A stretch of 64,000 nt of DNA, taken from Erodium maritimum. Taxonomy: Eukaryota; Streptophyta; Magnoliopsida; Geraniales; Geraniaceae. This document shows, piece after piece, positions 1,504 through 58,500 of the stretch. The DNA lies in the NCBI GenBank assembly GCA_963921825.1, contig OY997588.1:157233618-157297617 (forward strand), given 5' to 3'. A model generated the notes under the pieces. That model ran no database searches and was not told the origin of the DNA. It saw only the letters and a program-made list of their open reading frames with translations. A program made the position numbers and the translations under genes. Position 1 is the first letter of the stretch. Each line of letters begins with the position of its first letter.

Positions 1504-2665
1504 ATGAGCACACCCAAAGTATGTAACTCAAAACCCAGATCTTCATTTCCATGAACCCGTATCGAAAAACACATAAAAATCTCATCTTTATGACTCTATT
1601 GTGTGTTGTTCTTCATTTTGTGTTTCTGGTTAGGTGACTGAAACTCAAAACCCATATCAAAAAACATCTAAAAATCTTGTCTTTATGATTCATTTGTTTG
1701 ATGTTCTTCATTTTATTTTCTGATTAGGTGACTTGAACTCAAAACCCAAATCACCATTTCCACTAACCCATATCAAAAAAACATCTAAAAATCTATCTTT
1801 ATGACTCTATTGTGTGTTGTTCTTCATTTTGAACTCAAAACCCATATCAAAAAACATCTAAAAATCTTGTCTTTATGATTCCATTGTGTGTTGTTCTTCA
1901 TTTTTTTCTGATTAGGTGACTGAAACTCAAAACCCAAATCTCCATTTCCACGAACCCATATCAAAATTCATATAAAAATCCCATCTTTATGACTATTGTG
2001 TGTTGTTCTTCATTTTGTGTTTCTGATTAGGTGATTGAAACTCAAAACCCATATCAAAAAACACCTAAAAATCTCCTTTGTGATTCAACTGTGTGTTGTT
2101 CTTCATTTTTTATGATTAGGTGACTGAAACTCAAAACCCAAATCTCCATTTCCACTGACCCATATCAAAATTCATATATAAATCTCATCTTTATGACTCT
2201 ATTGTGTGTTGTTCTTCATTGTGTGTTTCTGATTATGTGACTGAAACTCAAAACCCATATAAAAAAACATCTAAAAATATTTATTTTTTTCTGATTAGGT
2301 GACTGAAACTCAAAACTCAAAACCCAAATCTCCATTTCCACTAACCCATATCAAAAATCATCTAAAAATCTCATCTTTATGACTCTATTGTGTGTTGATC
2401 TTCGTTTTATCTTTCTGATTAGGTGACTGAGGAGGTGAACGAGAAGGGGGAGAAGGAGACGATCACGACGGTGGAGACGGTGGATTACCGGACATCGGCG
2501 GGGGAGCAGGAGCCGACCAAGGAGGAGGTGGAGGTGGTTCATGTGTCTAAGGATCAGGACGGTGGTTCCGGCGGTGGTGTGGTGGCGCGTGCTGTTGCTG
2601 CGGTGGCTCGGGCCCTGCCGTCCGGCGGCGGTTCGGAGACCGCCGATGAGCAAAGCAAGAAATGA
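1504..2665 (+). CDS. 85-aa charged plant protein, two exons (hypothetical)
   Basis: Coding exons are 1504-1518 and 2423-2665. Exon 1 is only five codons (MSTPK) and ends at AAA|gtatgt. Exon 2 begins after ctgattag and reads VTEEVNEKGEKET... to ...ADEQSKK and stop. Both junctions are in phase 0, giving 85 residues. The first half is rich in Glu, Lys and Thr. The second half has a Gly-rich run, an Ala/Val/Arg helix-like stretch (VVARAVAAVARAL) and a charged tail. There is no signal peptide or membrane segment and I do not recognise the family. A TATA-like tract (atatatatatgaaac) lies about 90 bases upstream of the ATG and the leader is CAA-rich. The short exon 1 is inferred from the splice signals and frame; no transcript was seen. 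The intron is a tandem array described separately. Confidence 0.6.
1519..2422 (+). repeat. Intron built of tandem repeats carrying decoy 3' splice sites
   Basis: The intron of the 85-aa gene is about eight diverged copies of a unit of roughly 60-125 bases. Each unit has 'tgtgtgttgttcttcatttt', then 'ctgattag', then 'gtgactgaaactcaaaaccc'. The last unit ends at the real acceptor (AG at 2422), where the exon opens with gtgactgagg. Thus each repeat contains a copy of the acceptor plus the first eight or nine exon bases. AG decoys lie at 1633, 1727, 1915, 2030, 2119 and 2298. One near 2236 has lost its AG (gattatgtgactg). The donor region (gtatgtaactcaaaaccc) also resembles the unit. Confidence 0.8.
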
Positions 2666-13179: not shown

Positions 13180-15906
13180 ATGCCAGATGAAATGGACACC
13201 GAGATGATGGAGACCCAAAACCCTCCGCTTCTCTCTCCGTCTCAGCAAGGATTCGCCTCCGGTTCCGGCGCCGGCGCCGGCCAATCCGACGTCGTCCGGG
13301 ACCTCCTCACACTGGCTCGCCAGCTCATCGATCAGGGAAAGCCCAAACAGGCTCTCCAAACGGTAATCTTCTGTTTCTCTACTGGCTCAGCTGCAGCTAA
13401 TTCGAACCCCTTTTTGCTTAGTTGTTGATTTTGTTCATGGGGTTTGTTTTTTTCCTCGAAAAGTTTGCATCTTTGAGCTGATCTCGATTGCCCAGAAAAG
13501 TTGATTGTTGTCTAGTTGATCTTCAGCTGTTTGATTTTAGTGGGTCGTTTTTGAATTACAGTTCAGTACAGTTGATTAAGATTTGTGATGACTGATGAGT
13601 GTTGTTTGATCAAGTGGCCTATGTTTAGCATGTTTCCTCTGTGATTGATTGCAATTCTCGAGCTGTTTTATCACTTGTTGCTGGTTGGGGTAACTTCATT
13701 AACACCCATTTGATCTTTGTTTCCAATTAACGCGCTCTTAACGTGGTTTGGTATCAATAACATACTGTCACCTTTCGAATTAATCAAATACGCCCCGATT
13801 CAGGTAGAAAATGTGATAGTTTTATCACGAACAAAGTGGGTATGTAAATGTAGTTATTGATTTAAGGATATTCGGTATCAGTAACATAATGTCACCTTTC
13901 GTATCAATCAAACACACCCCGATTCACTTAGAAAATGTGATAGTTTTATCGGGAACAAAGTGGGTATGTAAATGTAGTTATTGATATCAAAAGGTCATTG
14001 TGGGTATCTCATTTATCAGCCCGGATTGACGCTGAAAAGGTGACAGTTTTATTGGAACAAAGTGGGTATGTAAATGTAGTTAATGATAGCGAAAGGTCAA
14101 AGTGGGTATCTCATTTATCAGAAAAGGTGATATAGTGTTACTGATACCGACTCACTTTTAGGGTATGTTATTGATAACGAAAGGTCAAAATGGGTATGTA
14201 AATGTAGTTTTCCCTTGTTGGTTTATTAGTAGGAATTGATTTTGTTCATGTTGTCTATTTGTTTTTTCTTTGAATAGTTTACTTCTTTTTAGCTAATCCT
14301 GGTTGCCCAGAAGCCCAGAATTGTTAGTTGATCTTCAACCATTCTCTTATAGCCGTTCTTTTTTTATTTCCAGTTCAGTTGATTAAGATTTGTGAATTGT
14401 GATGAGTGTTACTTGATCAAGTGGCCTATCTTTAGCATGTTCCCTATGTGAGTGGTTGCAATTCTCAATTGTGATCATCAAGCCGTACAGTTTTTCTTCA
14501 ACGTTTTGTTGTGAATTGTTGTTGGTTTATTGGTAGGAATAGACTTTTTTTCATGGTGCTCTCTTTGTTTTTTTCCTTGAAAAGTTAACATATTTTTAGC
14601 AAATCTCGATTACCCAGAAAACCCGAATTGTAGTCTGGTTGATCTTCAACAGTTTTATTTGTAGTGATTAGTTCTTCAATTCCATTCCAGTTCATTTGTG
14701 ATGAGTGTTATATGTTTCATCTGTAAGTGCTTCAAACCCTCAATTATATGTGCATCAAGCTGTACAGTTCATCTTCAGTGGTTTTTGCAAGTGACTTCAA
14801 ACACTCTTATATTTGTCCAATTCGGGATAAGTTTTGAGTCAAAATATCATCATAAGTAAATAATGAAGTATGATTCATCACTAAGTTAGCAAAGCTTCGG
14901 TGCTAGGCTGGGCTAATATGGGTGATCATAGCCACGTGTCCCGTGGTAAGGGGGCACAATCCTTTCTCCTTCTGCGTCCATGGATGATTCGCCCAGACTT
15001 TAAAACCCCCTTTTTAGGCAATTTGCCCAGCTGATTCGCTCGGGCAAAGAATCCTTCGCCCAGACAAACCCCCAAACTCATTTAGTAAGCAACTCGCCTA
15101 TATGATTCCCCCGCCATTGGAGGTGCTCAAAGTTATGTAATCCTTCGCTGAGACAAACCCCCGAACCCTTTTATAGGCAATTCGCCTAGGTGATTCCTCC
15201 GCCATTGGAGGTGCTCAAAGTTAAGTAATCCTTCGGTGAGACAAACCCCCAAACCCTTTTATAGGCAATTCGCGTAGGTGATTACCCCGCCGTTGGAGGT
15301 GCTCTAAGTTATGTAATCATTCACCCAGACAAACCCGCAAACCCCTTTTATAAGCAATTCACCAGCCATTACAGGTGTTCTAAGTTATGTAATCCTTTGC
15401 CCATACAAATCCCCAAACCCCTTTTACATACAATTCGCTCAGGTGATTTGCTCGCCATTAGCGAGCTCTAAGTTATGTAAGGTGGTGTATTCTATGAAGA
15501 ATCAGTGTATAACCTGACTGTTTTCGTTCAGGTGGTGATGGCAATGAGAACCCAAGGAGGAGATGAAGCCGTGTTCCAATCCCTCCACCGTGCCCGTGAC
15601 CTATACAGAACCAAACTCCAAGACAATGTTGCTGTAGACCAGCTCGCCTCACTCTTCGCCGAGTGCGCCATTGCTGAGGTCCAACCCTCCAAAACCGAAC
15701 CATCACCAACACAGCCACAGAACATGGCTCACACCTTGGCTGCACCCGACTCTCATGCCACATCCATCTTGGCCGAGTCTGGCAGGTCGCAGATCGTGCT
15801 CGATGCATTTTCAGATGGGAGCAGCTTCATTTGCTTGCAATGTGGAGGCCTTGTGAGTAACCTTCGAAAAGATGAGCACTATGCATACTGGTGTTATGGA
15901 ATGTGA
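13180..15906 (+). CDS. Conserved plant protein with C-terminal CxxC...H...C motif, 185 aa, two exons
   Basis: Exons are 13180-13362 and 15532-15906, joined in phase 0 (CAA ACG|gtaatc ... ttcgttcag|GTG GTG). The N-terminus is Ser/Gly/Ala-rich and disordered. From about residue 38, [20 protein letters not shown] and the following exon form a TPR-like helical region ([20 protein letters not shown]), with [17 protein letters not shown] after it. The end, ICLQCGGLV...KDEHYAYWC, has C162, C165, H177 and C182, spaced like a small zinc-binding site. I remember such proteins as conserved and uncharacterised in plants, but cannot name one with certainty. The ATG at 13180 lies a few tens of bases after a GAAGAAG-rich leader. 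The 2.2-kb intron is filled by repeats (listed separately), so it has expanded. Confidence 0.75.
13735..14215. repeat. Intronic MITE-like repeat, 'taacatactgtcaccttt' family, with internal tandem copies
   Basis: Within the intron, the phrase gtatcartaacataMtgtcac, then the phrase aaaatgtgatagttttatc, then gtgggtatgtaaatgtagtt recurs two to three times. The end carries it in inverted form (agtgttactgatacc, aacgaaaggtcaaaa). A relative lies in the NAC intron at 47735-48010. It is probably a foldback DNA element with internal duplication. Confidence 0.65.
15045..15480. repeat. Intronic minisatellite, about five units of about 100 bp
   Basis: The unit runs from 'cccagacaaacccccaaacc' through 'ttttataggcaattcgcc' to 'cgccattggaggtgctc' and 'aagttatgtaatcc'. 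Five diverged copies end about 50 bases before the exon 2 acceptor. The motif ccattggaggtgctc, read on the other strand, is the 'gagcacctccaatgg' type terminus common to plant MITEs. The array therefore probably arose from within a MITE. Confidence 0.8.
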
Positions 15907-17799: not shown

Positions 17800-18450
17800 A
17801 GGTTGAAAAAGTTATTGACAGTGGAGAAAAAAAAAGGTTTGCTGACGTGTTGTCTCTGATTTTCTTTTTCTTGACAGTTCTCTCTCTTTCGAGTTTGTAG
17901 GTTCATCGACGTCGATTTTCTCTTCTTTTCGTCTCTCTACTCCCTCACCCTTTCTTTTTTCGTTTTTCTTCTCTCTCTCTCCTCAACCAATCTTCTCTTT
18001 ACACGTGTTGATTTTGTTCAGATTCGACCCATCAAATCCGATCCTCCACTACATAATTTACAAATCCAACCCTGATATAATTCCACCGATGAAACAAAAT
18101 ATCCTCCTCCGATCCCATTATGGAGAAAGAATCATCGAAAGTGGAGATAAAAAGGGGCTTGCTGACGTGTTGTCTTAGATTTTCTCTCTCTTAGTGATTC
18201 ACTCTCTTTCGAGTCTGGAGTTTCATTAACGATGATTCTCTCTTCTCTTTGTCTCTCTCCTCTCTCACTCTCTTTTCTTTCCCTTTTTCTTCTCTATCTT
18301 CTCTCGACGAATCTTCTCTTTACACGTGTTGATTTGGTTAGATTCGACCCACCAAATCCGACCATCCACTAATTTACGAATCCGACCTTGATTTAACCCC
18401 ACCGATTCGACGGAAAAAATAACCTCCTCCGACCCTACTACAGATGCTCC
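17800..18450. repeat. Two direct tandem copies of a MITE-like element
   Basis: Copies at about 17800-18120 and 18121-18450 share 'gctgacgtgttgtct', a long CT-rich run, and 'ttctctttacacgtgttgat' followed by 'cgacccaycaaatccgay'. A third, diverged copy is at 61745-62075 and an inverted one at 18766-19121. No reading frame is conserved between copies. The family members are about 330 bases long. Confidence 0.7.

Positions 18451-21071: not shown

Positions 21072-21144
<73 letters not shown>
21072..21144. repeat. (CT)n microsatellite in the WOX4 leader, about 36 units
   Basis: An uninterrupted run of CT for 73 bases ends 73 bases before the WOX4 ATG. It lies in the probable 5' UTR or core promoter. 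On the minus strand it is (GA)n, the type of sequence bound by plant BBR/BPC GAGA factors. Confidence 0.95.
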
Positions 21145-21147
<3 letters not shown>

Positions 21148-21217
21148 ATATTAGCACCTACTCTGTGTCATGCAACCCTAGCCCACGAGAAGCATGAACA
21201 TCGACTCAACTACTTGC

Positions 21218-23822
21218 ATGAAGATTCATCAATTCGCACGTGATTTAATCAACTGGGATCAGCTCGACCCTCTTGCTCCAAATCTCTCCGACACTTCTCC
21301 ACTCACCACCTTCGACCTCAAGACCTTCATCAGACCTCGGACTGGTTGTGTTGCTTCAACCACTAACAACGTTTCATCTCTTCATCCCAAGCCTCAGGTA
21401 CAAGGAAGTCTCTTCTCTAGCTAATTAGGGTTTGTCCGGTGGATCACAACACCAACTTAAACAACGGGGTTGGGGCTCCATCTATCAGTTCGAGTTTCTA
21501 AGTGAGTCGGGTTTGGATAATTCGATCTTTATTGATTTGATGGGTGTTGATGTAGGTGGAAACGCTCTCAGTTTAGATTTTTACCTATCGGTTTGAGTTT
21601 TTAAGTGAGTCGGGTCTTGCTAGTCTGATGTTGATGGATCAGATGGAGGCTGGTGTAGGTGGAAGCACACTCAATTCAAGCATCCATCTATCGTTTTGAG
21701 TTTTAAAGTTTGTCGGATCTTAATCTCTACTGATTTAATGGATGTTGGTGTAGGTGGAAACGCTCTTAGTTTAGACTTCTACCTATCAGTTTGAGTTTCT
21801 AAGTGAGTCGGGTTTGGATAATTCGATCTTTATTGATTTTATGGGAGTTGATGCAGGTGGAAACGCTCCTAGTTTAGACTTCTACTTATCAGTTTGAGTT
21901 TTTAAGTGAGTCGGGTCTTGTTTGTCTGATGTTGATGGATCAGATGGAGGCTGGTGTAGGTGGAAACACACTCAATTCAAGCATCCACCTATCATTTTTA
22001 GTTTTTAAGTATGTTGGTTCTTAATCTCTACTAATTTGATGGGTGTGGTGTAGGTGGAAACGCTCTTAGTTTAGACTTCTACCTATCAATTTGAGTTTTT
22101 AAGTCAGTCGGGTCTTGTTAAATGTTGGTGTAGGTGGAAACACACTCCATTCAAGCATCCACCTATCATTTTTTAGATTTTTAAGTTTGTCGGATCTTAA
22201 TCTATATTGATTTGATGGATGCTGGTGTAGGTGGAAATGCACCCAGTTCAGGCCTCCCCTGGTTTGAGTTTTTAAGTGAGTTGGGTCTTAATAGATTGAT
22301 CTTTATTGGTCAAACTGGTGTTGGTGTAGATGAAAACGTACCTAGTTTAAGCCTCCACCTATTAATTCGAGTTTTTAAGTTGGGTCTTAATAGTCTGATC
22401 TGACGGGTGCCGGTGTAGGTGGAAACGCACCCGGGAGGGACGAGGTGGAACCCGACGCAAGAACAGATAGAGATACTCGAAACGGTGTACAAGGGAGGGA
22501 TGCGAACCCCGAACGCGCAACAGATCGAGCGCATCACCGAACGGTTGAGTAAGCACGGGAAGATCGAAGGCAAGAACGTGTTCTATTGGTTTCAAAACCA
22601 CAAGGCACGAGAGAGACAAAGACAGAAGCGCGACAACACTACCGTGTTGGCCCTCCGCCGGTCTCCGAGAACCTCACCAATGTCCTCGCTCACTACCGTA
22701 ACTCTTGAAACCAAGGTTTGTATATGTCATGGACTAATATATGGACTTACAGGATAATTACAAAAAAAAAGTACCTAGACATATTTAGTTGTAATCTTTT
22801 TATTTGGTGCTCTTTTTGAAAACTTGTAGTTTATTTCTTTAATAATAACAAAATGCACCTTGAAATTGTATTTTCTTTTACTTTTAGTATAAAACTGACG
22901 ATTTAATTCTTATAAATTAGATTTAAAAAATAAATTATCCTTTAATTCTTTTCTTTTTGTACGTACAAAGAGTAATAAATATTTTAATTATTTTTAAAAA
23001 TTTATATTTCTTATTTTAAGAAAATAATAATCCAATTTCACCTTATAAAATCATCAATTTAAAACAGATTGTAATTATACCAAAGAAGAGGACTACAATT
23101 TATAAATAAACAATAAATACCTAGTGATTCTTTTTTTTTATCCCTTGCAAAAAAATGTCTTGAACTTATTTTTTAATTTCACTTTGTGTAGTTTTGATTT
23201 AAAATGAAGATTTAACCCTTAAAAAAATAACAAGTAATGAGAATCTAGAATACATTTATCCTAGTTTTCTTTCTAGTAATTCCCAAAAAAGAAAAACCAG
23301 AAAGGTAAAAATTCTAGATATTTTATAAGAAAAACTTATTAACTTATTTAACTTAATCCCTGTTTAGGTAGGGATTGATCCGATTTTTTCAAATCTGCTT
23401 AAAGCCATCCGATTTGTTAAAATCGGGTCGGTGTTCTAAAAATTCCCGTCTAAACATCAATTAATTCCCGCTTAAGCCCGACGTTTAAAACACTGTTTCC
23501 ATTTATAAGTTTAATGTGTTCAAGGATATAATCGTTATTTTAAAATATACAACAAACAAATTCATAATATTTTTAGAAAGTGGGTATTTTATAATAATAT
23601 TTTTAATTTTATCCCTAGACTTAATCATCTTTTGAGTTAATGAATTGTTATTTATTAATGTAGAGTGATCATTGTCAACAAGAGGAAAGCGTGTACAAGA
23701 GGAAGTGCCGGAGCTGGGAATTCGGACAAGAGAGTCGCAGGTTGTGGCCGTGTTCGTGTACGGACGAGGACGGAGATCGAACTCTGGAGCTCTTCCCGTT
23801 ACACCCGGAAAGCAGATCGTGA
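21218..23822 (+). CDS. WOX4: WUSCHEL-related homeobox 4 (vascular cambium stem-cell regulator)
   Basis: Three coding exons, all phase 0: 21218-21397, 22419-22715 and 23664-23822, giving 211 aa. Exon 1 starts [10 protein letters not shown] and has PLAPNLSD and [11 protein letters not shown], as in Arabidopsis WOX4 (MKVHEF..., RPLAPKLS, TFDLKNFIRP). Exon 2 carries [20 protein letters not shown] and the WOX homeodomain (residues 67-131) with the helix-3 motif [15 protein letters not shown]. Exon 3 has [11 protein letters not shown] and the WUS box TLELFPL (199-205), followed by HPESRS and stop. WOX4 is a nuclear transcription factor acting downstream of the TDIF-PXY/TDR peptide-receptor pair to keep procambial and cambial cells dividing. 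An in-frame ATG at 21194 would add eight residues; 21218 matches the family. The N-terminal region is shorter than in Arabidopsis (the Ser/Leu-rich CKRLR part is missing). The tandem-repeat intron 1 is described separately. Confidence 0.95.
21398..22418 (+). repeat. WOX4 intron 1: tandem array carrying nine decoy 3' splice sites
   Basis: Almost the whole intron is ten diverged units of 80-103 bases. Each unit ends in ggtgtag followed by gtggaaacgcwc, exactly as the true acceptor (AG at 22418) is followed by exon bases gtggaaacgcacccg. Decoy AGs are at 21555, 21658, 21753, 21856, 21959, 22053, 22133, 22230 and 22329. Spacing alternates near 103 and 95 bases, and two unit types alternate ('cgctcttagtttag' and 'cacactcaattcaagc'), so pairs were probably amplified together. 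Confidence 0.9.
22752..23150. repeat. MITE-like repeat in WOX4 intron 2, 'attgcaaaaaagtac' family
   Basis: Opens with aggataattacaaaaaaaaa and gtacctagac, and closes with caataaatacctagtg and a T/A run ending cccttgcaaaaa. The middle is AT-rich with ttaaaacagattgtaat. It is one copy of a family also seen at 31370-31625, 37130-37465, 40265-40630, 48880-49105, 57585-58003 and 59470-59760. It has no coding capacity. Confidence 0.55.
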
Positions 23823-28512: not shown

Positions 28513-31500
28513 ATGGCGCAGATTCAGGTCCAGCCTCCGGCGACGGGACCGAACGGTGCGGCGGCGGTGGCGGCGGCTGGTGCTCCGGGCGGTGGCGCGA
28601 GCCAGTTCGGTACTACTTCGCTGTATGTGGGAGATCTGGACTTCAATGTGACGGACTCTCAGCTCTATGATCTGTTCAACCAGGTCGGTCAAGTTGTGTC
28701 GGTCCGGGTCTGCAGGGACTTGACCACCAGGCGGTCGCTTGGTTATGGCTATGTCAACTACAGCAACCCTCAGGATGGTTAGTTTTTGTCCTGATTAGTG
28801 CGTTTGGTTACTGAGAATTTGAGTTTGGTTTGGGTGATTTGCTTAGTTGCTTGATGGATATGAAGATTTTGTGTCGTTGTTTGCTTAATCTGGAATGTAT
28901 AGCATAGGTGGAAGTGGAAGTGTTTTTGCTTAATTGATTGATGGATAAGGAGAATTTGGTTTGTTTTTTTTGCTTAATCTGGAATGTTTAGCACTGATTG
29001 AAGTGTTTTTGGTTAATTGATTGATGGATAAGTAGAAAATGTTTTGTTGTTTGCTTAATCTTGAATGTTAAGAGGATTGTTTATGTACTTCAAACCCTAT
29101 AGATCCCTTGGACACTTCATAATTAAAGTAAAATTAGTTTTGAGTAAATGATATCAGGGAAGTCTGGTAATTAGCTTTCTGTTTAGAACCTTTTGTCATT
29201 GTTCTTATCAGATGTTTATTGTTGAATGCGTATCAATGTGTAATGGTTATTATGATTATGTAATGGCTTTTGTGATTATGTCATGCTTGTAGAGTTTGCA
29301 CTCATTGAAATTTATACATTCAAGGTTTGTTACTTGACTTGTTTTTGTTGGCTACAGCTGCGAGGGCGCTGGATGTGCTTAATTTCACTCCACTTAATGG
29401 AAAGTCCATTAGAGTTATGTACTCTCACCGTGATCCTACTATCCGGAAGAGTGGGTCAGCAAATATTTTTATCAAGGTAAATTTTGTTTTTGTTTTCTTT
29501 ATTGCGTCCCGAATATGTTTGTTGGGGAAGTCTCTAAACCGTGAATTTATTTGTGTTTGGAATGTGTCATTCTTTTTCTGTGCTCATTTTCTATGACTTG
29601 TCTGATAAACATTTATTCTTACTTCTGGTGGGTGCAGAATCTGGACAGGTCAATTGATCACAAAGCTTTGCATGACACATTTTCGTCATTTGGCAACATC
29701 CTTTCTTGCAAGATTGCCACTGATGGCACTGGCCAGTCCAAGGGCTATGGTTTTGTGCAATTTGACAATGATGAGTCTGCTCAGAATGCAATCGACAAGC
29801 TGAACGGTATGCTGATCAATGACAAACAAGTTTTCGTCGGACCTTTTCTCCGTAAACAAGAAAGAGACTCTGCAACGAGCAAGACACAATTCAATAATGT
29901 GTATGTGAAGAATTTGGCTGAATCGACAACTGATGATGATCTGAAGAAAACGTTTAGTGATTTTGGTCCGATCACCAGTGCTGTGGTTATGAGGGATGCG
30001 GATGGAAAATCAAAAGGGTTTGGATTTGTCAACTTTGAAAAAGCTGATGATGCTGCTAGAGCAGTCGAGGGTCTAAATGGGAAGAAATTTGATGACAAGG
30101 AATGGTATGTTGGGAAGGCACAGAAGAAGTCTGAGAGAGAGGTCGAGCTGAAAGGAAAGTTTGAACAGACTATGAAGGAAGCAGAGGACAAGAACCGAGG
30201 GGTCAATTTGTATGTTAAGAACTTGGATGATAGTGTTGGTGACGATAAGCTGAAGGAAATGTTCTCTGAGTTCGGCACAATTACATCATGCAAGGTTTGG
30301 ATGCTAACACTCGTACTTTGGCGTTCAAGTTTTTATCCCTCTGAAACTTCGGAATTTATCTATTTTGTTTATTTGTAGGTCATGCGTGATCCCAGTGGTA
30401 TCAGTAGAGGTTCTGGATTTGTTGCCTTTTCAACTCCTGAAGAAGCATCCCGTGCTGTATGTCCATATTCTTATCACCATATTCAATTTTGTATTATATA
30501 AGTACTGTACCCTATATTTCTTGTTTTTTTTTCTAGCTTGCGGAGATGAATGGTAAGATGATTGTCAGCAAACCACTTTATGTAGCTGTTGCACAAAGGA
30601 AAGAGGATAGAAGAGCAAGGTTGCAGGTACAATTACATTACTTCCATAAAGACTTTGATGAAATTTAATGGTTCTGGTTTTATTGATTTTTTTTGGCCTA
30701 GAAGGGGAATATATAGCTGGATTTGTGGCATAACAATTTATTTTCCTCGTGGATCCTATTTCAATGGGTGATGTTATAGTTCACCAATAATGTTTGCAAA
30801 ACGCATATAGTTCAGCACAAGTTTTTGCAGTTACTCCTTTGGTTTATGCTGACTTTTAACTTGCTGATGCTGTTAAACTGTAATTTACCCTCTGGTATGA
30901 ACATATGATTTCACTTGGTTTTTATCTCTATGCGAAAATTTCTCTTTCCCTGTGCTGAAATCTTATATACTTACTGCCCTGAATTTTATTTACATGACAA
31001 CCTTCACGCTAACACATTGCTCCATATATTTGTACTGCTCAGGCACAGTTTTCTCAGATGAGGCCGGTTGCTATGGCACCTTCAGTTGCTCCTCGTATGC
31101 CTATGTATCCTCCTGGTGCTCCTGGTCTTGGGCAACAGTTCATGTACGGTCAAGGTCCTCCTGCTATGATCCCTCAAGTAAGTTTCATTTTGAATTACCC
31201 TTCATGTGTTAAATGTTTTCTTCAGTCTGTGGAAAATTTCCTTCTCAACTTTTAACATTATTTTGTATTTGTCTAGTTAAACATATTATGTTCTGTGATA
31301 CTGGAAGTACAATTTGGTATATTTGAAAGTGAAGCATTTTGGTAATTGAAAGCTTCCTTGTACTAGAACTAGGGTTAATTGCAAAAAAGTAGCCTGATGT
31401 GTTCACTTTTGTTGCACTTTGTATAAATTTGTTTGGATATTAAATTTGGTATATAAACATGTGATGTTGTTTTCAAATTTTTAATCAAAATGGTAAGGTA

Positions 31501-38025: not shown

Positions 38026-38098
38026 CAAGACAGAAGCTCCCAATATAAGGAAGGCTTAAACCTAAGACCTTAAACCAAGTTCCTTAATCTTTCAGAAA

Positions 38099-39460
38099 AT
38101 GAGTCCTGAAAGAGTTGATTTCATCTCAGAATGTTTTGTGAAGCCAAACCCAACCCCAGAAGCTTCAATGAAGCCCCATCACATGACACCATGGGACCTT
38201 GCAATGCTCTCTGTGCAATACATCCAAAAGGGTCTCCTCTACCCAAAACCCAGTGATCCACACTTCTCCATGGAGGCCTTCCTGGGCAAGGTGGAGTCCT
38301 CCCTCTCCCAAACCCTCTTCCATTTCTACCCCCTTGCCGGCCGGTTTGCCACGACGAAATCCCAAAACCCGCCTCTTTACTCGGTCTTTGTCGATTGCTT
38401 GAACAGCTCGGGCGCCAAACTGATCCACGCGAAACTCGACCTGACCACGTCGGTTGTCCTTTCACCGTCTCCCGTGCCGTTGATTGTCCAATCGTTGTTC
38501 GACCACGACAGGGCGCTCAACCATGACGGGCACGAGATGCCACTGCTGACCATCCAGGTGACAGAGTTGGTCGATGGAATTTTCTTTGGGTGCTCCATGA
38601 GCCACGCGGTGGGGGACGGGACGTCGTTCTGGAACTTCCTCACTTCGTGGTCGGAGATCTTTCGTGCGCAGGACGGGAACCCTCCTGCCCTGTGCCAGCC
38701 GGTCCATGACCGTTGGTTTCCCGGTCAGACCGGACCGGTGATTAACCTTCCCTTCAAGGATCACACCGAGTTTGTCAACCGTTACGAAGCTCCTCTTCTC
38801 GTGGAGAAGATCTTCCACTTCTCGGCGCAATCCATTGCCAAACTCAAAAGACGGGCCAACTCTGAATACAACACAGAAAAGATCTCATCATTCCAGTCAC
38901 TGTCCGCGCTGGTGTGGAGATGCATAACAAGAACCCGTCGTTTCCCACCCGACCAAGTAACCAGTTGCAGGCTAGCGATCAACAACAGAACAAGACTGAA
39001 TCCGCCATTATCGCCCAACTACTTCGGGAACGCAATCCAAACCGTTAGAGGATTCGCCACCGCCGGTGAATTACTCGATCGCGACCTTGGTTGGGCGGCT
39101 TGGCAGCTACACCAAGTCGTAGCCAACCACAACGACCAGAAGGTCCGAGAGTTCCTCGAATCCTGGATCAAATCCCCTTTCATATACCAACTCGGCCAAT
39201 TTTTCGATCCCTATAGTATAATGATAGGGAGCTCGCCGAGGTTCAACAAGTATGGGATCGAGTTCGGATTGGGCAAGGCATTGGCTCTCCGCAGTGGATA
39301 TGCAAACAAATTCGATGGGAAGGTAACATCGTATCCTGGGTACGAAGGAGGAGGAAGCATGGATTTGGAGGTGTGCTTGTCGATGGATTCAATGAGATCT
39401 CTTGAATCTGATAACGAGTTCATGGAAGCTACAACATTATCAAATCAAATAATCCTCTAG
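38099..39460 (+). CDS. BAHD (HXXXD-type) acyltransferase, tandem copy 1
   Basis: Intronless, 453 aa, full length for the family. The catalytic HXXXD is at H169-D173 (SHAVGDGTSFWNFL). The C-terminal structural motif, usually DFGWG, is EFGLG at 388-392 (EFGLGKALALRSGYANKFDG), followed by SYPGYEGGGSMDLEVCL. Such soluble enzymes normally transfer acyl groups from acyl-CoA to alcohols or amines of secondary metabolites. MSPERVDFISECFVKP plus the motif variant place it, from memory, with the At3g50280/At5g67150/EPS1 group. Arabidopsis EPS1 of that group acts as a lyase in salicylate formation, so the reaction cannot be predicted. It is about 90% identical to the copy at 40893 (about 43 differences by eye). 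Its promoter has gained a 385-bp element. Confidence 0.92.
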   Translation: MSPERVDFISECFVKPNPTPEASMKPHHMTPWDLAMLSVQYIQKGLLYPKPSDPHFSMEAFLGKVESSLSQTLFHFYPLAGRFATTKSQNPPLYSVFVDCLNSSGAKLIHAKLDLTTSVVLSPSPVPLIVQSLFDHDRALNHDGHEMPLLTIQVTELVDGIFFGCSMSHAVGDGTSFWNFLTSWSEIFRAQDGNPPALCQPVHDRWFPGQTGPVINLPFKDHTEFVNRYEAPLLVEKIFHFSAQSIAKLKRRANSEYNTEKISSFQSLSALVWRCITRTRRFPPDQVTSCRLAINNRTRLNPPLSPNYFGNAIQTVRGFATAGELLDRDLGWAAWQLHQVVANHNDQKVREFLESWIKSPFIYQLGQFFDPYSIMIGSSPRFNKYGIEFGLGKALALRSGYANKFDGKVTSYPGYEGGGSMDLEVCLSMDSMRSLESDNEFMEATTLSNQIIL

Positions 39461-40812: not shown

Positions 40813-40892
40813 CAAGACAGAAGCTCTCAGTATAAGCAAGGCTTAAACCTAAGACCTTAAACCTTAAACCCAGATCATTAATCTTTCAGAAA

Positions 40893-42254
40893 ATGAGTCC
40901 TGAAAGAGTTGATTTCATCTCAGAATGTTTTGTGAAGCCAAACCCAATCCCAGAAGCTTCAAAGAAGCCCCATCACATGACACCATGGGACCTTGCAATG
41001 CTCTCTGTGCAATACATCCAAAAGGGTCTCCTCTACCCAAAACCCAGTGATCCACACTTCTCCATGGAGGCCTTCCTAGGCAAGGTTGAGTCCTCCCTCT
41101 CCCAAACCCTCTTCCATTTCTACCCTCTCGCCGGCCGCCTCGCCACGACGAAATCCCAAAACCCGCCTTTATACTCGGTCTTCGTCGATTGCGTCAACAG
41201 CCCGGGTGCCAGACTGATCCACGCGAAACTCGACCTGACTGCGTCGGTCGTCCTTGCGACGTCTCCCGTTCCGTTGATAGTTCAGTCGTTGTTCGACCAT
41301 GACCGGGCGCTCAACCACGACGGGCATGAGATGTCCCTGCTGACCATCCAGGTGACGGAGCTGGTCGACGGAATTTTTGTCGGGTGCTCCATTAACCACG
41401 CGGTGGGGGACGGGACGTCGTTCTGGAACTTCCTCACCGCGTGGTCGGAGATCTTTCGTGCGCAGGACGGGAACCCTCCTGCCCTACGCCCGCCGGTTCT
41501 CGAGCGTTGGTTTCCTAGTCAGACTGGACCGGTGATCAACCTTCCCTTCAAGGATCACACCGAGTTCGTCAACCGTTACGAAGCGCCCATTCTCGTGGAG
41601 AAGATCTTCCACGTCTCGGCGCAATCTATAGCCAAACTCAAAGAACGGGCCAATTCTGAATACGACACAACCAAGATCTCCTCGTTCCAGTCCTTGTCAG
41701 CTCTCGTCTGGAGATGCATAACAAGAACCCGTCGTTTCCCACCCGACCAAGTAACCAGTTGCAGGCTAGCGATCAACAACAGATTAAGACTGAATCCGCC
41801 ATTGTCGCCCGAGTACTTTGGGAACGCGATCCAAACTGTCAGAGGAATCACCACCGCTGGTGAATTACTCGATCACGACCTTGGTTGGGCGGCTTGGCAG
41901 CTACACCAAGCCGTAGCCAACCACAACGACCAAAAGGTCCGAGAGTTCCTTGACTCATTGATCAAATCCCATTTCATATACCAGCTCGCCCAGTTCTTCG
42001 ATCCCTACAGCATAATGATGGGGAGCTCGCCGAGGTTCAATAAGTATGGGATCGAGTTCGGATTGGGCAAGGCATTGGCTCTCCGCAGCGGATATGCACA
42101 CAAGTTCGATGGGAAGGTAACATCATATCCTGGACACGAAGGAGGAGGAAGCATAGATTTGGAAGTGTGCTTGCCAATGGATTCAATGAGAGCTCTCGAA
42201 TCTGATAACGAGTTCATGGATGCTGCAACATTATCAAATCAGATAATCTCGTAG
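40893..42254 (+). CDS. BAHD (HXXXD-type) acyltransferase, tandem copy 2
   Basis: Intronless, 453 aa, same length and motifs as copy 1: HXXXD at H169-D173 (NHAVGDGTSFWNFL), EFGLG at 388-392, and a closing SIDLEVCLPMDSMRALES. The catalytic and structural residues are intact in both copies. Differences cluster around residues 108-125 and 166-245, near the HXXXD centre (FFGCSMS to FVGCSIN) and the following CQPVHD to RPPVLE segment, so substrate choice could have shifted. The start is fixed by the shared ATG context (tttcagaaaATGAGTCC). Its promoter lacks the GC-rich element found before copy 1, so expression of the pair may differ. Confidence 0.92.
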   Translation: MSPERVDFISECFVKPNPIPEASKKPHHMTPWDLAMLSVQYIQKGLLYPKPSDPHFSMEAFLGKVESSLSQTLFHFYPLAGRLATTKSQNPPLYSVFVDCVNSPGARLIHAKLDLTASVVLATSPVPLIVQSLFDHDRALNHDGHEMSLLTIQVTELVDGIFVGCSINHAVGDGTSFWNFLTAWSEIFRAQDGNPPALRPPVLERWFPSQTGPVINLPFKDHTEFVNRYEAPILVEKIFHVSAQSIAKLKERANSEYDTTKISSFQSLSALVWRCITRTRRFPPDQVTSCRLAINNRLRLNPPLSPEYFGNAIQTVRGITTAGELLDHDLGWAAWQLHQAVANHNDQKVREFLDSLIKSHFIYQLAQFFDPYSIMMGSSPRFNKYGIEFGLGKALALRSGYAHKFDGKVTSYPGHEGGGSIDLEVCLPMDSMRALESDNEFMDAATLSNQIIS

Positions 42255-53777: not shown

Positions 53778-54212
53778 TTATTTTATTCACATTACATTAT
53801 CAATTAATCATCACCCAATTTCATAAATCACAGACCCATTCGATAAAAACGTGAATCTACAGTCGAAACAGATGAAAAAGCTTCGATTTTTATTTGTTTG
53901 CGGTTGAAATTGTGGTATAAAAATCGTATTTTTATGTTTTGGGGAAAAAAGGAAAGGGGAAGAAAACTGATTTCAATTTCAATTATGACTCGTATTATTT
54001 TATTCACATTACATTATCAATTTATCGTCACCCAATTCCATAAATCACAGACCCATTCGATAAAAACGTGAATCTACAGTCGAAACAGATGAAAAAGCTT
54101 CGATTTTTATTTGTTTGCGGTTGAATTTGTGTTATAAAAATCGTATTTTTAAGTTTTGGGGAAAAGGAAAGGGGAAGAAACTGATTTCGATTTCAATAAT
54201 GACTCGTATTGC
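53778..54212 (+). repeat. 218-bp tandem duplication in the MBR promoter/leader region
   Basis: The segment from ttttattcacattacattat through acgtgaatctacagtcgaaa to tttcaattatgactcgtatt is present twice (about 53778-53995 and 53996-54212), with only a handful of changes. It ends about 100 bases before the probable start of transcription. Elements in it would be doubled. Confidence 0.9.
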
Positions 54213-55578
54213 TCTCTCTCTCTCTCTGGGTTATTTCGTAAATTGTAGATTACTCCCCTTTTTTAATCTCTTCCTCTCTCTCTTTTTCTCTTCCCCTTCT
54301 CTGAAATTTCCTTTTCTCTGTGTTCTCACCTCTCTCTCATAGCCTCACCGATTCTTCTTCCTCTCCTCCCGAGGCCCTCTGCTCCCGATTTTCTCATCTG
54401 GGTTTGTGTTTTTGAATCTTCTCTTACATGGAAAGAGGAAGCAGATTGCTGAGGGTTTTTTCTTTCGTTTGATTTTTTTTATTTAGTTTCTCTTCTGGGT
54501 TTTGTGTTTCTCTGTTCTCTCTCTCTCAGGTTCTTAGATCGATCGGGTTCTTCCGTTGGATATGTAAGTTTTTCTGGGTTTTGTTTGCTTTTTACATCGG
54601 TTTATGCTGTTTCTGGAGATGATTTTGCTTGAATTTTTCTGGGTTTCTGTTTAAATCTGTGGGGGATGTAATCTGAGCTTGGTGTTTGGTGTTGGTGTGT
54701 TTGATTTGTTTGTTGTGAATCTATTGAACCTGGTATTGTCTTCACATTTGGTGTTTGGTTGGTGAGAAAAGTCAGAAATTTTCCCTGATTCCAGCTGGGT
54801 GATTTGTGGCTCAGTGCTTGTTGTTTGTTTATGGGTTTGATTTTTTATATTGAAAATCTGGGGTGTTGTGGTTGTTTGTGTGGTGGCTGTTTGGTACAAA
54901 GGTTGGGTCTCTTTGTGTTTCTTAAGTTTCAATATGGTTTTGGGAATTCTAGATCTTTGATGGGTGTCTTGTGTATCTGATTTTTATCGCCTTAAGCTGC
55001 TGTGAGAACTCGATATAGTCATCGAGTTCTTATAGCTTCGATATAATTATGGCTTCTGCATTGCTATATTACTTGGTAATTCTCTAATTCCATTACAGCT
55101 TGATGCTCTCAGGACCTTTCAGCTGAATGGTTGAACCATTGAGTATGAATAGTTGGAGGAAATTAGGATTAGTTAATTTAATTATTGCCTTAAGCTGCTG
55201 TGAGAACTAGATATAGTCATTGACTTCTTATGCTATATTGCTATGCATATCGATATAATTATGGCTTTTGCATTACTACATTACTTAGTAATTCTCTAAT
55301 TCTCATCTGTTTTGGTTCAATTTGCAATCTTGTGCCTTTGTCATTGAATATAATCATCTTTAGAGTTGCAAATGCTGAATAGTTCAATGAAATTATAATT
55401 ATTTTGTTTTAATCTCAGCTGATCGAAAGGCCAGGTTAATTGTTGCTATTAGAATACATTGTTTTGCTATATCTAATTATTATTATTTTGTTTTTTTTGT
55501 TTGTTCCAGATTTGCCCTTTTGTTCTTGAGTGTATTCGGATTCTTATTCTCAAGTGATCAGGAGATATACTAGCCCTA

Positions 55579-58500
55579 ATGCAAGGGCAGAGGGGAACCC
55601 TTGGATCTTTTCCTGAATCTTTCAATTTCGATCATGGATCTTCATCGAGCAGCACTGTAATGGACACCCAGATTTTCAGGAATAATACAAGAAACCAGAC
55701 AGAAATCGGGTTGCAAGATTATACCCTACCTGTTGACACAAATGTCACACATATGAATAATTGGGCCATTGGAGAGCCAAGTTCTAGTGTCGGTACTGGG
55801 CTGGGCCTAAGATTAGAAGAACACCACTTTGCACCACCAAGCGTCGTGTCGCTAGACAATGCCAGTAGGAGCCAAGTGTTCAAGCAAAGCGAAAACTCGG
55901 GTATGACCTTACCGGGCATAAACCTGAACGAAACTGCTGTGGGTCATGGTAACGACGATTGTCAGGTAATGGGCTTTCGTAATTTGTTCAGGCCCAACCC
56001 GCATGAAAGCGAGCAGCTTCCTCCTGCAAGTGCGCCCGATCCGTTTTTCCTTCATCCTGGGCGAGGCGGGTTTTTGGTGGAAGAGGATGAGGGCAGGGCA
56101 GGTTCTTCTTCAATGGAGGGTCGGCGTGGCTCTTGTAAAAGAAAGGCGGTTGAGGGACAATCTTCCGCGAGTGGGAGTAGGAGTGGTAGCGTGTGGCCTC
56201 CGCCTTTGAGTATCTCCACTCCATCAGAGCCACTGAATCCAAGGATCGGGCTTGGTGTGAGAAGGCCATCTCCGCAAAGTCAACCCAATGGTGAAGGACC
56301 ACAAAGAAACTTCCGGGTCAGGATAAATCCACCTATTCAACGTGATCCGAATAATGTTAGGCGCCCGAGCAGATCATCGTCTTCAACATCAAGGTCAAAC
56401 ATACTGATCGATGATTCGAATCCTCTAAACCAATCTTCTTCGGTTCAAGTTCCAATTTTGCCCCCGAATGTCAATGACCAACCGTTTAGGTGGAACGGGA
56501 GTTCTAGCTCGAGAACCAGCAACTCTTCAAATCCTTCCATGGAAGCTTTGACAAGAAACACCCGGAGACACATTCTAGAACACCCCATGTTCACACAAGC
56601 ACCTGAAATGAGAAGCTTGGCCCACAATCCATCGAATGCTAGTCTACCCGGTCAAAATAGTAATTTCACCATGCAACCTTCACCGGCTCCTTCATGGGTT
56701 CCTGACCAGAACCTTCCCCGGATTCCAAGGAGACTATCTGAATACGTTAGGCGATCATTGTTTTCTCCGGGCCAAGAGCCTGGAGGCCCAAGTGGCGCTC
56801 ATTCTCCTGTTCATGTGGGCCTTCCAGCTTCCTCACAGAATATGGTGCATCCATCTGGGCCTGTTAACTCTGGGCTTCCTCACACATACCCTAGGCTTGC
56901 ATCGTGGGCCGAGAGGCAAGGTGATGGTGTTCTCGGGTTTTCTCATCCACTTCGGCATCTTCCCGCTGGTAGTGAGGGAAGGCGCAGGCTTGCATCCGAG
57001 GTATGTATTGTTCACATGCAAAAAAAATCCCATTTATGTATTGTCCACGTGTGAAAAACTAGTGTAGGTTAAAAGCGTGGACGATACATAATGTAGTTCT
57101 TTGCAAAAGATAGTGTAGGTTAAACGCCACGGTTAATAATTTGAAAATATTTATATTCACCTGTCAATTAATATACATCTTTAGAAAACGATGTTGCATT
57201 CTGCATATATAATTCACAGAACCTATTGTTGCCTATTCAAATTTCTATTTCTTTAATGTTTAGAAGTTTAGTGTACTGTCACTGATTAACCCAAAATTAA
57301 GGTTTTAGAATAAACTTCCCATGAATATCCGCTCTTTTAATGCGGAAGATGTTGACTCGCTTTTAAAATGAATAATTTTCTAGCCAGCACTCGACTTAGG
57401 AGGACATATAAAATACTAATTACTATATACTGGATCGAAGTTCTTCACTTTGAAGTTGCGTGACTGAATTGTCACAATGTTTCTTTTGTGTGGAGCAGAT
57501 ACGCAATGTCTTAGATCTCATGCGCCGGGGAGAGGGTTTGCGATTGGAGGTAAGGTTTTACCGCATATTTATTTATCTTTATAGGGATAATCGCAAAAAA
57601 GTACGTTGAGATATTCAATTCTTGCAACTTGTGTCCCTCTTCTTTGGTAATTGCAAAAATGTACCATGAACTTGTCTTTTTATTGCACTTTGCTTAAATT
57701 TGTTTTGAATGACAATTTTACCCTTTGAAGTTTAAAATTTTAATTTATAATTAAAGAAAAAATTCCAAATGTTCATCTCTTAAATTTCTTATTCTTTGCC
57801 AGTACAAAGAGGAAGAAAATTAGGGGATATGAAAAATTGGATTATATATTTATTATTTTTTAAAATCTAAACTGAACTGTAAAATCACCATTTATACTAA
57901 TTGCAACAAAAGACAAATTCAGGTTACTTTTTTGGAACCATCAAGGTGGGCTACAGATAGCAAAAAATGGGTACCTCAGGGTACTTTTTGTAATTATTCC
58001 CATTTATTTATTAAAAGCAAGCAATAGCACAGTTGATATACATAATCTTATTATACATTCTTATCGGACTTTTGATTGCTAGGATGTTATGATACTCGAT
58101 CCTTCGGTATTATTTGGGGTAGCGGATATTCATGATCGGCATAGGGACATGAGACTGGATGTTGATAACATGTCGTATGAGGTAACATACATAGTGATTG
58201 ATCTCAATATATTTATCGTTTCGTTCCCTTTGTTGATATCGTTCTTATTTGACTTTTTTCCTCGATTTTTAGGAGTTATTAGCTTTAGAAGAGCGCATTG
58301 GAAATGTGTGCACCGGATTGAATGAAGGAACCATTCTATCTCGTCTGAAGCAGAGAAAATATTGCCAAGCAGGGATCGAGACTGAAGCTGCTTCTGAACC
58401 GTGCTGTGTCTGTCAGGTACTGGATAACACATAACTTGTTCTTTTCTTTTACTATAGGTTTAAAAGATATGCCAAAATTGACAACAATGCCATCGACTCT

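Follow-up and report, generated by a model that had tools for sequence, protein, structure and literature searches.

The 64-kb stretch of DNA analysed here (hereafter the window) exhibits on its forward strand a predicted gene with coding parts in three exons (Table 1). Joined together, these parts encode a 219-aa protein containing a homeodomain (Pfam PF00046, E-value = 2.2e-15). The only solved sequences matching this protein at E ≤ 0.001 are those of STENOFOLIA (6wig, E-value = 3.1e-26) and WUSCHEL (6ry3, E-value = 2.1e-23). By its predicted product, the gene is a WUSCHEL-type homeobox gene with the plant WOX homeodomain. We take it to be WOX4, which both the end of the protein (ELFPLHPE) and the junction motif fit. 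About 50 nt upstream of the start codon, a perfect CT dinucleotide run of 36.5 copies (21072-21144) lies probably within the 5' UTR of the gene.

The first intron of this gene (21398-22418, 1021 nt) is unusual in its structure. Its last ~940 nt are filled by ten tandem units, each corresponding to the 3' end of the intron, the acceptor and about 14 nt of exon 2. With ≤3 mismatches allowed, an 18-nt word covering the acceptor and the exon head, TGGTGTAGGTGGAAACRC, is matched 10 times, always between 21548 and 22428; shuffled sequences (n = 100) gave 0.06 matches on average. The ten-unit array with copied acceptor and exon head, described in an earlier note on this DNA, is thus real. The spacings between successive acceptors are 103, 95, 103, 103, 94, 80, 97, 99 and 89 nt, and the period reported by TRF is 103 nt. 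The head of exon 2 matches the decoys at 10-13 of 14 nucleotides from +1 to +14, and at only 1-4 of 16 from +15 to +30; this end of homology right after the copied head supports a unit that spans the exon-intron boundary. In a tree of the units, U1 pairs with U4, U2 with U5 and U3 with U6, while U9 and U10 stand apart from the others. This pairing and the 301-bp higher-order repeat fit the duplication of a block of three units. Outside the acceptor core, the mean pairwise identity of the units is 0.74. The donor and the first decoy are 158 nt apart, which is an ordinary size for a plant intron, and it is plausible that this stretch corresponds to the original intron.

Table 1. Positions in the window of the two genes, their boundary-spanning arrays and the individual acceptor copies
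Feature	Position	Strand	Remarks
WOX4 exon 1, coding part	21194..21397	+	ends in phase 0 (...CCT CAG); from translation
WOX4 intron 1, putative donor CAG/GTACAA	21398..21403	+	no G at +5; from sequence; predicted U1 duplex -7.1 kcal/mol
WOX4 boundary-spanning tandem array, ten units	21482..22432	+	first unit truncated; left edge perhaps ~21470 by eye
301-bp higher-order repeat, 2.1 copies	21482..22113	+	91% matches; TRF
Decoy acceptor 1, AG 21555, TAG/GTGGAAACGCTCTC	21554..21569	+	stop after 6 codons
Decoy acceptor 2, AG 21658	21657..21672	+	stop after 15 codons
Decoy acceptor 3, AG 21753	21752..21767	+	stop after 6 codons
Decoy acceptor 4, AG 21856	21855..21870	+	sole CAG among the ten; stop after 6 codons
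Decoy acceptor 5, AG 21959	21958..21973	+	multiple of 3 from true acceptor; stop after 13 codons
Decoy acceptor 6, AG 22053	22052..22067	+	stop after 6 codons
Decoy acceptor 7, AG 22133	22132..22147	+	multiple of 3 from true acceptor; stop after 16 codons
Decoy acceptor 8, AG 22230	22229..22244	+	exon head nearest the real one (13/14); stop after 14 codons
Decoy acceptor 9, AG 22329, TAG/ATGAAAAC	22328..22343	+	GT lost; stop after 6 codons
WOX4 intron 1, putative true acceptor AG	22417..22418	+	in-frame junction with WOX4 exon 2
WOX4 exon 2, homeodomain	22419..22715	+	translation, Pfam, solved-sequence matches
WOX4 exon 3, coding part	23664..23822	+	from translation
Second gene, predicted exon 1	1504-1518	+	open frame and splice signals alone
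Second boundary-spanning array, putative intron 1 of a short predicted gene	1519..2422	+	TRF list, sequence
Second-array decoys	1633, 1727, 1915, 2030, 2119, 2236, 2298	+	2236 has AT in place of AG
Second array, putative real acceptor	2422	+	
Second gene, predicted exon 2	2423-2665	+	open frame and splice signals alone

All nine decoy AG positions given in the earlier note are right. Its description of every unit as ending in tag/gtggaaac holds for the most part: eight of the nine decoys exhibit AG/GT, but 22329 has AG/AT, 21856 has CAG, and 21658 and 22230 differ inside gtggaaac. The exon head has been copied as well, over about 14 nt, which is more than the note described. Read from exon 1 in phase 0, each of the nine decoys soon runs into a stop, as the same note had it, the stops coming after 6-16 codons. 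The exon 2-exon 3 junction is about 370 nt or more further downstream; any of the nine decoys, if used, would thus give an early stop ahead of a later junction, as in splicing coupled to NMD.

The ten acceptors differ in their sequence surroundings. The GC content of the 50 nt following the site is highest at the true acceptor (62%, against 34-50% for the decoys), and exon 2 is richer in purines (60%) than the array (48%). The contrast in GC content between the two sides of the site is +0.16 at the true acceptor, and decoy 22230 reaches the same value. From -20 to -5, seven of the nine decoys contain 38-50% T against 25% for the true site, the other two being equal to it; in total pyrimidines over the same interval, decoy 22133 alone is above the true site. 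Predicted local RNA accessibility is low for all ten acceptors (percentiles 0.05-0.61; true site, 0.06).

A second boundary-spanning array is found near the left end of the window, in the putative first intron of a short predicted gene. This gene encodes 85 aa, and its product exhibits no Pfam match up to E = 1. Its array contains seven decoys, six with AG/GT and one with AT/GT, each meeting a stop after 2-30 codons. The 8-nt exon head GTGACTGA has been copied here: 6-8 of its 8 nucleotides match, followed by 4-5 matches over the next 16. The units of this array start with sequence also present close to the 5' end of the intron itself, and therefore nearly the whole intron constitutes the unit. 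The first decoy is 115 nt from the donor. As in WOX4, the sequence following the true acceptor has the highest GC content (58%, against 22-40% for the decoys), and exon 2 starts with GT in both genes.

We scanned the 64-kb window for exact 13-nt words around YAG occurring at least three times with gaps of 31-250 nt. Five words were obtained, all inside one or the other of the two arrays, while none was obtained in any of 20 resampled controls. They are the acceptor word of each gene (ending at 2422 and 22418), one more plus-strand word in the WOX4 array and two minus-strand words in the second array. Inspection by eye of the arrays at 15050-15360, 17820-18432, 28838-29069 and 53778-54210 revealed no boundary duplication; the remaining TRF arrays of the window were checked by the exact-word scan alone. 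The occurrence of the second array in a different gene argues for a general repeat process and not for a device specific to WOX4.

Two properties of the WOX4 array might be taken as signs of selection. One is the presence of a stop after every decoy. Among the start positions in the array (n = 848), 69.8% meet a stop within 16 codons, and the figure is 78.1% for the start positions tested in intron 2. Contrary figures come from the other AGs of the array, 23 of 48 of which stop as soon, and from resampled arrays, 57 of 2000 of which have stops at all nine decoy positions. As the nine decoys are not independent, being copies of just a few types of unit, we give the stops no weight as evidence of design. 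The other property is that the acceptor core, taken as 8 nt on each side of the splice point, is better conserved, with 0.44 inferred changes per column against 0.99 elsewhere. Values as low were found in 334 of 20000 random column samples and in 2 of 80 contiguous windows, the core having been chosen after viewing the alignment; in a shuffle taking the maximum over windows, the count is 4028 of 20000. The integrity of AGGT in both arrays is reached by 540 of 6364 window pairs, and in the single arrays 12 of 86 and 37 of 74 windows are as good. With a core picked post hoc, these figures make weak evidence for selection.

Arrays of this kind have a precedent in animals. In amphioxus, minisatellites spanning an exon-intron boundary are called mirages, and AG/GT occurs in many but not all of their units (PMC3087553). 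The same is found here: a tandem, minisatellite-like repeat, a unit extending across the exon-intron boundary, and AG/GT in many but not all units (8/9 decoys in WOX4, 6/7 in the second array). Like the array of amphioxus BflGb6, the WOX4 array consists of tandem units running across the 3' end of an intron and the 5' end of an exon, and its unit length (80-103 nt) is of the same order as those of BflGb6 (150-160 bp) and Adh3 (10-72 bp). Judged from its sequence, the WOX4 array is a plant member of the known mirage kind; we do not claim that plant mirages are unreported. It differs from the amphioxus examples in belonging to a plant developmental transcription factor gene, in having nine decoys, in its more diverged units and in being described from sequence only.

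Several other systems share a part of this structure. In a potato gene, thus also in a plant, a duplication across the boundary of intron 1 and exon 2 gave rise to a new intron supported by 106 RNA-seq reads (PMC4974935); that case involves one duplication and a new spliced intron, as opposed to the ten units found in WOX4. In human, internal tandem repeats at exon-intron boundaries are reported to form new introns (PMC2812944), and for some novel introns of Drosophila the proposed origin is a proto-splice site duplicated in tandem (PMC2891723). The repeat unit in intron 18 of human ABCA7 carries a donor, and retaining one unit shifts the frame (PMC5954066). The likeness to WOX4 lies in an intronic tandem unit with a splice site whose use leads to a frameshift and a premature stop; the differences lie in the ABCA7 unit (25 bp, about 12 to 427 copies), in the side concerned (donor in ABCA7, acceptor in WOX4) and in its splicing having been measured. 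Recursive splicing has been proposed in Arabidopsis for a one-nucleotide exon (PMC4674806), and stwintrons are another case of consecutive excision (PMC7138796). Similarly, the splice signals of the WOX4 intron are so placed that a stepwise removal would be possible; unlike in those systems, the sites arose as copies of a repeat, and the intron measures 1 kb. The WOX4 array also stands apart from the potato, Arabidopsis and stwintron cases in being known from its sequence alone. Among the matches listed by our literature searches, none dealt with such an array in WOX4, and a full-text search with phrases on decoy or duplicated splice sites returned no match among the papers covered.

We consider it probable, at roughly two chances in three, that the WOX4 array is a mirage-type boundary-spanning minisatellite that is mainly neutral, with its decoys used at a low level at most. 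A segment of ~95 nt, made up of the 3' end of WOX4 intron 1, its acceptor and the opening ~14 nt of exon 2, would have been duplicated in tandem. Amplification would then have followed, including one duplication of a three-unit block; the block structure is seen in the sequence, while the order of events is a reconstruction. The copying appears to have proceeded from exon to intron, given that the protein motif encoded by the exon 2 head is conserved in WOX4. The earlier acceptors would thereby have been left as decoys ahead of the true one. Splicing would mostly use the last acceptor, because no other is followed by coding sequence rich in GC and purines and bearing the signals that belong to exon 2. 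The decoys may be used at a low level at most, and the resulting transcripts, stopping early and ahead of a later exon junction, would presumably undergo degradation. The array would thus be mainly a neutral by-product of local repeat turnover, with a likely variable copy number. Variation in unit number between individuals, suggested in the earlier note, is plausible: in amphioxus, two haplotypes of BflGb6 carry 6 and 3 units (PMC3087553). We read the array as mainly neutral because of the amphioxus precedent and because the most GC-rich sequence follows the true acceptor in both genes. The lower rate of change in the core, the T-richer decoys, the GC contrast of decoy 22230 and the fact that decoys are transcribed first are points against neutrality.

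An alternative, which we regard as rather unlikely, is that the decoys are spliced and then spliced again. Exon 1 joined to a decoy would rebuild a donor, which would be spliced on to later acceptors until the true exon is reached; decoy use would thus be self-correcting and leave no trace in the mRNA, and tolerance of such arrays would be largely confined to exons starting with GT. As exon 2 of WOX4 starts with GT, joining exon 1 to any of eight decoys indeed produces the donor-like CAG/GTGGAA. The earlier note had treated decoy use as a terminal event, whereas this junction would offer a further donor. An acceptor abutting a donor, as AG/GT, is present at most decoys of both genes, and at eight of the nine WOX4 decoys the rebuilt donor is predicted to pair with U1 at -7.6 kcal/mol (-1.7 at 22329), compared with -7.1 for the real donor. 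The distances between decoys (80-103 nt) are enough for a plant intron. The new spliced intron of the potato gene (PMC4974935) and the recursive splicing proposed in Arabidopsis (PMC4674806) point in the same direction. However, the rebuilt donor has no G at +5, and the U1 measure has little discriminating power: it places the real donor 14th among 154 GTs (those of introns 1-2 and of exon 2) and also gives -7.6 to the junction formed when exon 1 is correctly spliced to exon 2. In the second gene, the rebuilt donor (-2.4) is weaker than the real one (-4.2). Nor is the integrity of AGGT clearly above that of other 4-column windows in the counts given above. A more general form of the idea holds that plant introns can grow harmlessly by boundary-spanning duplication whenever the next exon starts with GT, each array being a self-healing splice ladder independent of the other, with GT as the filter. 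We find this generalization improbable, and two genes are too few to claim an enrichment of exons starting with GT.

The earlier note itself proposed that the array acts as a brake, splicing to decoys giving truncated, NMD-sensitive mRNA that sets or tunes WOX4 output, perhaps according to unit number. The early stops at all nine decoys and their distance from the exon 2-exon 3 junction agree with this proposal, as do the mild conservation of the acceptor core and the lower proportion of other array AGs that stop as soon (23/48). The length of the ABCA7 intron 18 VNTR, moreover, is associated with altered splicing (PMC5954066). Against it, early stops are common in intron sequence and the units are copies of one another; the conservation is weak, in both the maximum-over-windows shuffle and the AGGT comparison; and a second array sits in a different gene. 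RT-PCR of amphioxus mirages suggested undisturbed regular splicing (PMC3087553), and the ABCA7 authors saw no effect of length on NMD (PMC5954066). We therefore consider a role of the array in tuning WOX4 output unlikely. The decoys might instead pair with downstream donor-like words to form poison exons of about 45-49 nt, and suitable words do occur (TAA/GTGAGT at 21502, 21605, 21803, 21906 and 22276, TAA/GTATGT at 22009). Their predicted U1 pairing (-5.7 and -5.0) is weaker than that of the real donor (-7.1), and the central positions of the donor-like word differ from unit to unit with no sign of maintenance, so that such pseudo-exons seem very improbable. Hardly credible, finally, is a multiplication or shuffling of units by misassembly. 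The BflGb6 array of amphioxus did appear aberrantly assembled in the genome draft (PMC3087553), but the WOX4 units differ at many sites (0.74 identity outside the core) and the match between the higher-order copies is 91%, short of 100%. This divergence indicates that the array itself is real sequence, and that the exact number of units alone could be wrong.

Two plant cases are found in a single 64-kb stretch, for a structure that was named and described in amphioxus in the literature examined, and one of the two concerns a developmental regulator. With nine near-copies of a 3' splice site, the WOX4 intron amounts to a natural experiment on the spliceosome's choice between repeated acceptors. 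The copies also raise a testable question: is it the GT start of the exon, by letting mis-splices be re-spliced, that makes boundary duplications tolerable?

Other repeats and duplications are present in the window. The array at 28838-29069, an 83-bp repeat of 2.8 copies, is located within intron 1 of a gene carrying RNA-recognition motifs and, by eye, crosses no exon boundary; this gene is presumably PABP-like. At 53778-54210, a 217-bp direct repeat in two copies (94% matches) lies upstream of a long reading frame (55558-57054). Two tandem reading frames, at 38066-39460 and 40836-42254, are very similar to each other by eye, and the former matches the Pfam Transferase family (acyltransferases).
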